Assembly (NCBI RefSeq): GCF_024022995.1
Contig: NZ_CP099582.1
Location: forward strand, 558,001-622,000
Direction of reading: 5' to 3'
Length of the DNA: 64,000 nt
Origin: Thermococcus aggregans
GTDB taxonomy: Archaea; Methanobacteriota_B; Thermococci; Thermococcales; Thermococcaceae
Of this stretch, positions 9,588 through 50,928 are shown in pieces. The position numbers and the translations under genes are program-made. Every line of letters begins with the position of its first letter. The first letter of the stretch is position 1. The notes under the pieces were generated by a model. The model did no database searches, was not told the DNA's origin, and saw only the letters and a list, made by a program, of their open reading frames with translations.

Positions 9588-10219
9588 TTACAGCTCCACT
9601 TCATAGTCTTCTAATTCCCTGTTAAGGGCTTTAGTAACCACAAGCTTTCTTCTCTTGTCTTTTTTGAATTCTATAATGGTTGTGGCTAATTCTTCTAGTA
9701 AAGCTAGGACTTCTGGCTTAGTTGCATTTAGAATATCCCGGTTCACAAAGTAGAAAGAGATTCCACGAGTGTCTCCTAAAAATGTTCCAAGCGCATTGAT
9801 AAGTGGTAATTCCTCTCCCCTTATAACACTTCATCTCTCTATTCCAACGGCAAACACAACTGTAAACTTTTCACTCACTATCTTATCATAAATCTGGCGG
9901 TATTCACTGAGCAATGCAGGCAACTCTCTATCTCCGTTCAAAAATCCAACCATGTTTACTCCTGGTATTTCACGATATCCAGTCTCAACGAATTTTGCTT
10001 TTTTCAGCCCCTCTTTCATCAATTCAAAATAAGCGGGGTATAATTCCAGTTGCTTTAGGCGGAACTCTATACAATCAAAGAAATCAGTCACAAGTACTTG
10101 GTAGTCATTGGACTCACTCCACTCTAATACTTTATGGGCGATTACCAAGGCTCATCTTTGGACGAATACTCTACTAACACAATCTCCCCCGGTCTTAGCT
10201 TGTCAAAGATTTCTAACAT
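9588..10219 (-). pseudogene. Broken DUF257-family gene (one frameshift, one nonsense codon)
   Basis: On the minus strand the reading starts at 10219 with MLEIFDKLRPGEIVLVEYSS, preceded by AAGGTGGT, and hits TAA after KDEPW. The frame then shifts near 10150, where LVIAHKVLEWSESNDYQVLV continues the same protein. It next meets an in-frame TGA at 9831-9833 (FAVGIER, stop, SVIRGEELPL) and continues without gaps to LVVTKALNRELEDYEVEL and TAA at 9588-9590. Joined, the pieces give about 210 residues, the usual size for DUF257, a Thermococcales family distantly like KaiC domains and of unknown function. Two independent lesions make sequencing error an unlikely full explanation. Confidence 0.82.
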
Positions 10220-10229
10220 AATACCACCT

Positions 10230-10454
10230 TCTAATGTTATTCACTATGCCTAATATTTAAGGCTTTTTATAACTACGAATTTTTTGCTTAACTGTTGATT
10301 GAAAAAATGTTTGTATAAGACACACTAAAAAAAATTATGGCCTAATTGTTGGTTCATTAATGCCAGACTATAAAAATATGAAAAAGTTTTGGAGGGCATT
10401 GGATAATTGTTTGGGATCAATGGAATGCAGTAATATGTACGCTATGTGGTTGTT
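10230..10454. other. AT-rich non-coding stretch in decayed region
   Basis: No coding signal is seen. It holds a TATA-like CTTAAATATTAG (minus strand, about 10246-10257) for the broken DUF257 gene and CTATAAAAATATG (10368-10380) as a possible promoter for the RHH gene on the plus strand. Confidence 0.5.
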
Positions 10455-10669
10455 ATGGGGAGAAAGTTTAGGACAACTGTGCTTATCCCTAAAGAACTTC
10501 ACCAAAAAACAAAGAACAAGAGCATAAACTTAAGTAGGCCTCTTGAAAAGGCCTTGATGATAGAGTTAGAGCTTTTAGAAGCATTGACTTGAAAAGAGAA
10601 GAGCTTTTGAGACAAAGACTCTTAGAAGATAAGGTTAAGAGTGGGGATGAAAACTTGGTAGTGGGATGA
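10455..10669 (+). pseudogene. Remnant of a ribbon-helix-helix protein gene
   Basis: ATG at 10455 opens MGRKFRTTVLIPKELHQKTK and NKSINLSRPLEKALMIELEL, the strand-helix-helix pattern of RHH (CopG/Arc-like) DNA-binding proteins. The frame stops at 10590-10592 after only 45 residues. A second frame continues plausibly as FRSIDLKREELLRQRLLEDK and VKSGDENLVVG, stopping at 10667-10669. The simplest reading is a frameshifted gene of about 70 residues. Alternatively the 45-residue form is complete. In Thermococcales such proteins accompany integrated elements and toxin-antitoxin loci, but no partner is preserved here. Confidence 0.5.
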
Positions 10670-10719
10670 TGAGTCTGGAGCCCCCTGAGTGGTGAGGAAG
10701 TTTCGCGGGGCTGACCCCA
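10661..10719 (+). ncRNA. C/D box sRNA (2'-O-methylation guide)
   Basis: All four boxes are present with exact archaeal spacing: C box ATGATGA (10666-10672), 12-base guide GTCTGGAGCCCC, D' box CTGA (10685-10688), a three-base linker, C' box GTGAGGA (10692-10698), 12-base guide AGTTTCGCGGGG, and D box CTGA (10711-10714). The flanks TGGG and CCCA can close a terminal stem. By the N+5 rule the predicted targets are GGGG[C]UCCAGAC and CCCC[G]CGAAACU, the bracketed base being methylated; which rRNA or tRNA contains them was not checked. It would assemble with L7Ae, Nop5 and fibrillarin. Ends are approximate. Confidence 0.88.
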
Positions 10720-11015
10720 GTGATAAAAAGAAGACTTTGTAAAGATCTCTGTGAGGAAATTGAGAGGCTTGAATGCTCTATTGTAGAACTTGAGGAGCAG
10801 ATAATTGAGTTAAAGACCCAATTAAATATGAAAACTGAAGAAGCAACAAGCCTTTATATTGAAAACCAAAGCCTGAAACACAAAATAGAAATGCTGGAAA
10901 AACTCACAAACAGCTTATTGAGATGCTTAAGAAGATGAAAATTCCCTTTGTTGTTGTGGATGAGGATGAGTTTGAAGACGTGGAAATTGATAGGCAAACA
11001 AAAATCTATGAATGA
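10720..11015 (+). pseudogene. Frameshifted coiled-coil protein gene
   Basis: GTG at 10720 opens a 72-residue frame ending at 10938, rich in Glu/Leu heptads (IERLECSIVELEEQIIELKTQ), a clear coiled coil. If one A is added to the run of five at 10898-10902, the frame continues as EKTHKQLIEMLKKMKIPFVV then VDEDEFEDVEIDRQTKIYE, ending at 11013-11015. That tail looks like real protein, so the gene probably lost one base in a homopolymer. Product family not recognised. The start codon lies a few bases after the C/D box sRNA, so its original start may have been elsewhere. Confidence 0.55.
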
Positions 11016-11082
11016 ACCTTCAGACAAAGACTTTTTAATATGAAACTCAACTTTTAGGTTAGACTTAAGGATGGTGATGATC

Positions 11083-13806
11083 ATGGACATGGGCACAAGG
11101 ATGTTTAAAGAAGAAGGATGGATAAGAAAAACCTGTAAGGTCTGTGGAAAGCCTTTTTGGACGCTGGATCCGGATAGAGAAACCTGTGGCGATCCTCCAT
11201 GTGATGAGTACGAGTTTATAGGAAACCCCGGCATACCGAAGAAATACACCCTTGATGAGATGCGTGAGAAGTTTTTGAGCTTCTTCGAGAGAAAGGGACA
11301 CGGGAGGGTTAAGCGCTATCCCGTTCTGCCTAGGTGGAGAGACGACGTTCTTTTAGTTGGAGCATCGATTATGGACTTCCAGCCGTGGGTCATAAGCGGC
11401 GAAGCCGATCCTCCGGCGAACCCGCTTGTAATAAGCCAGCCGTCCATAAGGTTTACCGATATCGACAACGTCGGAATAACGGGCAGGCATTTTACGATCT
11501 TTGAAATGATGGCTCATCATGCGTTTAACTATCCAGGGAAGCCAATTTACTGGATGGATGAGACCGTTGAATACGCCTACGAGTTTTTCACTAAAGACCT
11601 CGGCATGAAAGGGGGGGACATAACCTTTAAGGAAAACCCGTGGGCAGGAGGAGGAAACGCTGGTCCGGCTTTTGAAGTGCTATACAAGGGATTAGAGGTG
11701 GCTACGCTGGTTTTCATGCAGTACAAGCTGGCACCTCCGGTTGCTGATCCTTCTCAAGTTGTGGAAATAAAAGGAAACAAATACGTCCCAATGGATACAA
11801 AGGTCGTGGATACGGGATATGGGCTTGAAAGACTTGTGTGGATGAGCCAAGGAACGCCAACGGCTTATGATGCAGTGCTGGATTACGTAATCGAGCCCCT
11901 TAAGAAGATGGCAGGAGTCGAGAAGATAGATGATAGAATTCTCATGGAGAACTCAAGATTGGCTGGAATGTTCGATATTGAAGATATGGGCGATTTGAGA
12001 GTATTGAGGGAAACCGTTGCAAAGAGGCTTGGAATTGATCCAGAGGAGCTTGCGAGACTCGTTAGGCCATACGAGCTGATCTACGCTATAGCCGATCACA
12101 CAAAGGCATTAACCTTTATGCTTTCCGACGGTGTTGTGCCGTCTAACGTTAAAGCGGGCTACCTTGCAAGGCTCCTAATAAGAAAGAGCATAAGGCATCT
12201 TAGAGAACTTGGTCTGGAGATTCCCCTCAGTGAAATAGTTGCATTGCACATAAAAGCTCTCCACAAGACCTTCCCAGAGTTCAAAGAGATGGAAGATGTT
12301 GTCCTTGACATGATCAACGTTGAAGAGAAAAAGTACGCGGAAACATTGAAGAGAGGAAGCGGATTAGTCAAGAGGGAAATTGAGAAGCTCAAGAAGCAGG
12401 GTATTAATGAACTTCCGCTTGAAAAGCTTATCCTCTTCTATGAAAGCCACGGCTTAACCCCTGAGATAGTCAGTGAGATTGCGGAAAAAGAAGGTATGAA
12501 AGTTAAGGTTCCAGACAACTTCTACAGCTTAGTTGCCAAAGAAGCTGAAAAGACAGCCAAGAAAGAAGAGGAGAAAAAAATGATAGACTTTGAGCTTGTT
12601 CAAGACTTACCAGATACGAGAACACTTTATTATGAAGATCCGTTCATGAAGGAATTTGATGCAAAAGTCCTTAGGGTAATAGACGACTGGGTTATCCTGG
12701 ATGCCACGGCGTTTTATCCCGAAGGCGGTGGTCAGCCCTGTGATTTGGGCGAGCTTAACGGAGTTAAAGTGCTTGACGTCCAGAAGGTTGGAAAGGTAGT
12801 CCTCCATAAGGTAGAGAAGCCCGAAGTCTTCAAAGAAGGGGACATTGTTCATGGAAAAATCGACTGGCAGAGGAGAATACAGCACATGAGGCACCACACA
12901 GGAACACACGTCCTTATGGGGGCCCTTGTTAGGGTTCTTGGAAAACACGTCTGGCAGGCCGGTTCACAATTAAGCACCGACTGGGCAAGACTCGACATAA
13001 CCCACTACAAGCGCATCAGTGAGGAGGAACTCGATGAGATAGAGCTTTTGGCAAACAGGGTCGTAATGGAGGATAGAGAGGTAAAGTGGGAGTGGCTACC
13101 GAGGACTGAAGCGGAACAAAAATACGGCTTTAGGCTCTACCAAGGTGGAGTTGTGCCGGGAAGGGTAATTAGGGTTTTGAACATCAAAGACTGGGACGTG
13201 CAGGCTTGTGGTGGTACTCACTTGCCCAGAACTGGTTTAGTAGGTCCCATAAAGATACTAAGGACTGAGAGAATACAGGACGGTGTTGAGAGGATAATCT
13301 TCACTTGCGGTGAGGCAACCATTAAAGAGTGGCAGAAGGAGAGGGAGATATTAAACAGAACGAGTGCAGTATTCAGAGTTCCTCCAGAAAAGCTGCCGGA
13401 GACTGCAGAGAGGTTCTTTGAGGAGTGGAAGCAGGCAAGGAAGGAAGTAGAGAAGCTCAACAAGGAACTTGCAAAGCTTCTTATCTATGATCTCGAGAAC
13501 AAAGTGGAAAAGATAGGGGAGATAGAGTTCATTGGAGCCATAGTTGAAGGAGAGATAGACCACTTAAGAGAAGCCGCCCTCAAGCTCAAGAAGCCGAACC
13601 GTGTCGTTGCCTTAATAAGTGAGGACAGCAACGCAGTCGTTGTAACAGTTGGCGAGAACTTGGACTACAAGGCTGGCGATTTGATAAAGATAATCACGAA
13701 GGTTGCAGGCGGAGGCGGTGGAGGTAAGAAGGACCTCGCCCAAGGAAAAATAAAGAACATCCTAAAGGCCAAGGAAGCTCTTGAAGAGCTTAAGAAGGCC
13801 CTTTAA
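11083..13806 (+). CDS. alaS: Alanyl-tRNA synthetase (archaeal type)
   Basis: Charges tRNA-Ala with alanine and edits mischarged serine and glycine. The 907-residue protein has the archaeal N-terminal zinc-binding-like segment [20 protein letters not shown], the class II catalytic core ([37 protein letters not shown]), the editing domain with [12 protein letters not shown] and [10 protein letters not shown], and the DHHA1 C-terminal glycine-rich signature [14 protein letters not shown]. Several in-frame ATGs lie at the start; 11083 best fits the GGTGAT site, while 11071 overlaps it. A TATA-like CTTTTTAATATG lies at about 11031-11042. Confidence 0.97.
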
Positions 13807-50870: not shown

Positions 50871-50928
50871 GGCAGATGATGAGCTTGGCCGCTTCCGAGT
50901 GGTGAGGATAAATCTCGGTGCTGATGCC
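50871..50928 (+). ncRNA. C/D box sRNA (2'-O-methylation guide)
   Basis: Box order and spacing are exact: C box ATGATGA (50876-50882), guide GCTTGGCCGCTT (12 bases), D' box CCGA (50895-50898, one change from CTGA), linker GTG, C' box GTGAGGA (50902-50908), guide TAAATCTCGGTG (12 bases), D box CTGA (50921-50924). The flanks GGCA and TGCC close a terminal stem. By the N+5 rule predicted targets are AAGC[G]GCCAAGC and CACC[G]AGAUUUA. It lies between hit and glgA, opposite strand to both, and overlaps the last codon of glgA. C' box and linker equal those of the sRNA at 10661. Confidence 0.9.

Follow-up and report, generated by a model that had tools for sequence, protein, structure and literature searches.

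A C/D box sRNA of the sR23 family in Thermococcus aggregans with predicted targets in tRNA-Trp and a matching element downstream of tRNA-Gln

Features of the locus

The window is the whole stretch of 64,000 nucleotides of Thermococcus aggregans DNA that was analysed. The part of the window studied here carries pieces of a DUF257-like gene, a frame-broken ribbon-helix-helix (RHH) gene, a C/D box sRNA gene, a coiled-coil open reading frame (ORF), and alaS. The coordinates of these features, and of the related features elsewhere in the genome, are listed in Table 1. The C/D box sRNA gene is complete within positions 10661-10719 (+). The C, D', C', and D boxes of the sRNA follow each other in this order with guides within the length of 9-14 nt, as in archaeal C/D box sRNAs. 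A sequence-only reading of the window had described four boxes, two guides of 12 bases, and a terminal stem, all of which were confirmed at the positions shown. The same reading had placed the stop codon of the RHH remnant inside box C, and the TGA is indeed located there. A second C/D box sRNA is located at positions 50872-50926 (+) of the window and matches Rfam family RF01119 (sR32) with 57 bits.

Table 1. Features of the sR23 locus and related features of the genome. Positions are those of the window unless a contig is given.
Feature	Position	Strand	Basis or remark
DUF257-like protein pieces, at least one interrupting stop	9588..10148	-	probable pseudogene
RHH (CcdA-like) gene, frame-broken, 3' end overlapping box C	10446..10669	+	PF07362, E 3.8e-4, just under the cut-off
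C/D box sRNA sR23 (RF01138)	10664..10716	+	cmscan; found in 90 of 94 Thermococcales genomes
Terminal stem, short, TGGG / CCCA	10662-10665 / 10716-10719		sequence
Box C, ATGATGA	10666..10672	+	sequence; contains the stop codon TGA (10667-10669) that ends the RHH fragment
D' guide, GTCTGGAGCCCC / GUCUGGAGCCCC, 12 nt	10673..10684	+	sequence; tRNA-Trp pairing
Box D', CTGA	10685..10688	+	sequence, RF01138 alignment
Spacer between box D' and box C', 3 nt			sequence
Box C', GTGAGGA, one departure from RTGATGA	10692..10698	+	sequence, RF01138 alignment
D guide, AGTTTCGCGGGG / AGUUUCGCGGGG, 12 nt	10699..10710	+	sequence; tRNA-Trp pairing weak alone
Box D, CTGA	10711..10714	+	sequence
Coiled-coil ORF (YabA-like coiled coil), GTG start, 72-aa frame	10720..10938	+	orthologues, frames
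alaS, alanyl-tRNA synthetase, intact	11071..13806	+	ORF list; named from sequence, no database search
tRNA-Trp(CCA) gene, intron-containing	about G000:C1 527,540	+	locus L096
tRNA-Gln trailer elements	G000:C1:844139-844148 and 1054866-1054875	+	loci L068, L069; also L166-L218

Family assignment and conservation

The sRNA was assigned by cmscan to Rfam family RF01138 (sR23, a Pyrococcus/Thermococcus C/D box sRNA) with 73.3 bits, which exceeds the gathering score of 45 (E 7.5e-16), and the alignment spans the whole model from 1 to 54. RF01138 is present in 90 of the 94 genomes of the order Thermococcales, with all six genera represented, and in none of the 14 control genomes. The genomes of the order carry one full-length copy each as a rule. 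Based on this score and this near-universal presence, sR23 in the window is real and belongs to the catalogued family, of which it is an ordinary member. The window RNA shares the boxes and the D' guide with sR23 and matches the full model, which makes it an orthologue. It differs from the RF01138 consensus in the C'-D interval, which is one base shorter (guide AGUUUCGCGGGG), and in the C' box, which reads GUGAGGA. An exact-sequence search of the genome contig collection with the sR23 sequence of the window gave no match, and no paper was found in a literature search for sR23 by name.

The sequence-only reading had also held that the RNA is a C/D guide under selection and had pointed to the other Thermococcales as a comparison. 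That comparison agrees with it: the boxes and the D' guide are conserved throughout the order, and sR23 is therefore under selection as a C/D guide RNA.

Genes flanking sR23

The last piece of the RHH gene is the frame 10589-10669 of the ORF list, which ends with the TGA within box C. In three relatives (L111, L004/L137, and L022/L125) the upstream frame is open across box C and its stop codon lies further inside the sRNA. The RHH copy of the window is therefore frame-shifted, and the gene does look broken when it is compared with these sequences.

In 58 of the 66 distinct relative loci that were examined, the coiled-coil ORF is intact, encodes 83-102 aa, and has its start codon 2-6 nt downstream of box D. 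The other eight relatives keep sR23 without this ORF directly after it. The window copy is close to its relatives as far as '...EMLEK', where the frame changes and the other frame reads 'THKQLIEMLKKMKIPFVVVDEDEFEDVEID...'. One base is missing in the A run near 10897-10901, and the alternative frame extends to about 11015. On this comparison the ORF is to be regarded as a conserved neighbour with a single frameshift and as no relic. Between positions 10570 and 10910 the window exhibits frameshifts relative to its relatives, at least two of which (in the RHH gene and in the coiled-coil ORF) come from a short A run that lacks one A. The missing bases are possibly sequencing errors rather than real frameshifts. 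In L022/L125 (G076), the sequence directly adjoining box D resembles internal alaS, which would fit either a deletion that took the coiled-coil ORF together with the beginning of alaS or a rearranged assembly.

These observations change the picture of a decayed block with broken genes on both sides, in which selection keeps only the RNA, that had been drawn from the window sequence. The upstream side agrees with that picture, with a split RHH gene and DUF257 pieces, but the downstream ORF differs from its orthologues by one frameshift only. The RNA does end just before the GTG of this ORF as had been stated, but the ORF is not a remnant. The claim that only the RNA is kept does not hold, with the ORF intact in most relatives and a one-base frameshift in the window copy. 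It could also be supposed that sR23 itself is a leftover that persists in a decaying block by chance or merely as a recent remnant, and the broken RHH frame and the DUF257 pieces upstream would suit such an origin. We consider this extremely improbable, as it is contradicted by the presence of this RNA, with conserved guides, in 90 of 94 genomes and by the intact coiled-coil ORF alongside in most relatives.

According to a review (PMC7994747), overlap with the 3' end of an ORF is seen for 25% of the C/D sRNA genes of archaea, the stop codon lies within box C in almost half of such genes, and downstream pseudogenes are possible. The window locus does not differ essentially from these genes, where the upstream stop codon is inside box C (Tripp et al. 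2017, reviewed in PMC7994747) and the next start codon is just after box D, as here, and where downstream pseudogenes are mentioned. The stop-in-box-C arrangement is therefore typical and no peculiarity of this locus.

The short distance between box D and the coiled-coil ORF in most relatives would also fit a sequence that acts in cis, as an L7Ae-bound kink-turn leader that controls the coiled-coil ORF or alaS and not as a guide in trans. In some transcripts of T. kodakarensis, kink-turns have been proposed to act in cis (PMC4247193). This explanation is improbable for sR23: a cis kink-turn needs neither the full set of four boxes nor a guide that matches a target, yet sR23 retains both, and the eight relatives without the adjoining ORF keep the RNA nevertheless. 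A cis role and a guide role could coexist.

Pairing of the D' guide with tRNA-Trp

The 16S, 23S, and tRNA sequences were searched for complements of the guides, as the sequence-only reading had proposed, and the D' guide was found to match tRNA-Trp(CCA). The guide bases 10673-10683 (GUCUGGAGCCC) pair with GGGCUCCAGAC of the mature tRNA over 11 of 11 bases without mismatch, where the spliced anticodon arm reads GCGGG-CUCCAGA-CCCGC. C32 of tRNA-Trp is located opposite G10680, the fifth base before box D', which is the register expected of a stable-RNA target of an archaeal C/D box sRNA. This site is the best for the D' guide in 8,061 nt of stable RNA (16S, 23S, and 46 tRNAs), with a score of 11 against 7.2 for the next site. 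Shuffled D' guides equalled this score anywhere in stable RNA in 4 of 400 cases and in tRNA-Trp in 0 of 400. Two other candidates were rejected: 16S and 23S have no site that comes near the tRNA-Trp match, and a contiguous GGGGCTCCAGA target matches the genome only at the gene itself and at one apparent coding-sequence place.

The pairing was then tabulated for 70 copies of sR23, which include three that are seen twice. The Watson-Crick run with tRNA-Trp is 11 bp in 55 copies, 10 bp in 13, and 9 bp in one. In the remaining copy (L133) an additional C ahead of box D' puts the guide out of register. The anticodon arm of tRNA-Trp is constant in the 70 genomes retrieved by one search pattern and in 18 further genomes retrieved by another, although both patterns require part of the arm and could miss a genome with an altered one. 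A near-invariant D' guide thus faces an invariant tRNA-Trp.

The C32, C34, and C39 positions of P. furiosus tRNA-Trp are predicted C/D-guided sites; the predicted methylations of C32 and C39 were undetected in P. furiosus tRNA, and Cm34 was reported in some tRNAs (Wolff et al., PMC7668247). The C/D guide in the tRNA-Trp intron (sR50-type, Pyrococcus and Haloferax; PMC7994747) is similar to sR23 in having two guides for the anticodon arm of tRNA-Trp. The intron guide targets C34 and position 39, whereas sR23 is encoded elsewhere and would target C32 and probably G42.

Pairing of the D guide

The D guide AGUUUCGCGGGG pairs with CCCGCGGA at positions 39-46 of tRNA-Trp through eight contiguous pairs, one of which is G-U. 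G42 is located opposite C10706, the fifth base before box D, and the Watson-Crick pair at G42 is retained in 66 of the 70 copies. The helix is lengthened by a pair with A38 in the seven g5/g6 copies. Statistically the D guide does not stand out, as a site of equal quality exists in stable RNA for 355 of 400 shuffled guides. It has drifted or been lost in four or five Thermococcus-group genomes, in which tRNA-Trp is unchanged where readable. Judged by its pairing, the D guide is plausibly aimed at G42 of tRNA-Trp, and G42 in the target register is to be read as plausible only.

The only exact complement of the D guide in the genome is at the gene itself, and one of the near matches lies in 16S. 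At this site, near position 141 (CCCCGGGAAACU), 11 of the 12 D-guide bases are paired with one internal mismatch, and the duplex energy is -19.7 kcal/mol compared with -15.3 kcal/mol for tRNA-Trp. The stronger 16S duplex, and a D guide that drifts beside a near-invariant D' guide, would be expected if only the D' guide were functional, on C32, and the D guide were an orphan or an rRNA guide for the 16S site. However, the 16S pairing is mismatched beside the target nucleotide, and Pyrococcus-like D guides (CAGUCUGCGGAG and similar) misfit the 16S site and still fit G42 of tRNA-Trp. The tRNA-Trp of T. kodakarensis reportedly carries 5,2'-O-dimethyl-C at position 32 and 2'-O-methyl-G at position 42, the two positions predicted here for the guides of sR23. 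The Gm42 said to occur there favours the tRNA target as well. A single functional guide is therefore rather unlikely in our assessment, and guiding at both C32 and G42 is preferred.

An element downstream of tRNA-Gln

The search for D' targets also found GGGCTCCAGA just 3' of both tRNA-Gln genes of the genome. The 3' ends of 55 tRNA-Gln genes were read from 15 further genomes, a public genome scan, and the genome of the window, which gave 54 distinct trailers. GGCTCCAGA is present within the first 30 nt in 39 of these 54 trailers, and it is preceded by G in 35 of the 39. The element is located 6-10 nt after CCA, and at 7 or 8 nt in 35 trailers. The columns that flank it hold at most 0.7 bits, and it has sharp edges in non-conserved sequence. 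Because possession of the motif was what selected the trailers for this table, full conservation within the motif follows from that selection, which does not account for its occurrence in 39 of the 54 trailers or for its sharp edges.

The 10-nt element GGGCUCCAGA, found in trailers of Thermococcus and of related genera, is a perfect copy of the target in the anticodon arm of tRNA-Trp and an exact complement of the D' guide of sR23, with a duplex energy of -26.3 kcal/mol. Among the 30 tRNA trailers that were read in the genome, only the two of tRNA-Gln have the element. The genome contains the 10-mer at six places, two of which are the sRNA gene itself and tRNA-Trp. The element is absent from the three Pyrococcus-like tRNA-Gln trailers that were read although sR23 is present. 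No description of the trailer element was found in the literature searched.

A second block, CGAACCCC, occurs shortly downstream of the element in 15 of the 39 trailers. It is located a few bases past the first element in many Thermococcus-group trailers (L171, L172, L193-L196, L199, L200, L209-L212, and L217). The block either complements the T arm (GGGGTTCG) or copies part of it. A fold-back of the element on the anticodon arm of tRNA-Gln itself was considered and rejected. The two are near-complementary, but the conserved C is mismatched and the duplex is weaker (-18.1 vs -26.3 kcal/mol), and the predicted structures exhibit no such fold-back.

Genomic islands use tRNA-Gln as attachment site (PMC5126054). 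Some tRNA-Gln 3' halves occur without a matching 5' half and include the trailer element (L179, L183, L215, and L216), and these are probably traces of integrated elements attached at tRNA-Gln. The trailer element could on these grounds be the attachment site of integrated elements. We do not favour this explanation, as in several genera the element also stands 3' of complete tRNA-Gln genes, and it is absent from the three Pyrococcus-like trailers and was not found in the viral, phage, and plasmid collections. A scan of viral sequences with a short pattern gave 60 matches, which were taken as chance.

The exact complementarity and the sharp boundaries suggest a link between the trailer element and sR23. 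The element may be a second target or a built-in decoy of sR23, and pre-tRNA-Gln processing would then be coupled to the guide RNP acting on tRNA-Trp. We propose this tentatively, at slightly less than an even chance, and prefer it over an attachment site or a role independent of sR23.

Proposed function of sR23

We conclude that sR23 is very probably a C/D guide RNA that directs 2'-O-methylation of tRNA-Trp(CCA) at C32 through the D' guide and at G42 through the D guide. Expression, RNP assembly, and methylation in Thermococcus aggregans are steps that we infer. sR23 would be transcribed together with the neighbouring genes, bound by L7Ae, Nop5, and fibrillarin, and then trimmed or circularised. 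The D' guide would pair with the anticodon arm of tRNA-Trp(CCA), which would lead to 2'-O-methylation of C32, and the D guide would pair with the 3' side of the same arm, which would lead to methylation of G42. sR23 would in this way complement the tRNA-Trp intron guide, which is directed at C34 and at position 39.

The additions of this work are the target assignment of sR23 and the tRNA-Gln trailer element. The catalogued family gains a concrete pair of targets, tRNA-Trp C32 and probably G42. The trailer element, if the proposed link is true, would matter more than the catalogued guide RNA itself. A discarded tRNA tail would then be under strong selection as an exact match to a C/D guide, which suggests either that two tRNAs influence each other's maturation or that the tail is a natural decoy of the guide RNP.
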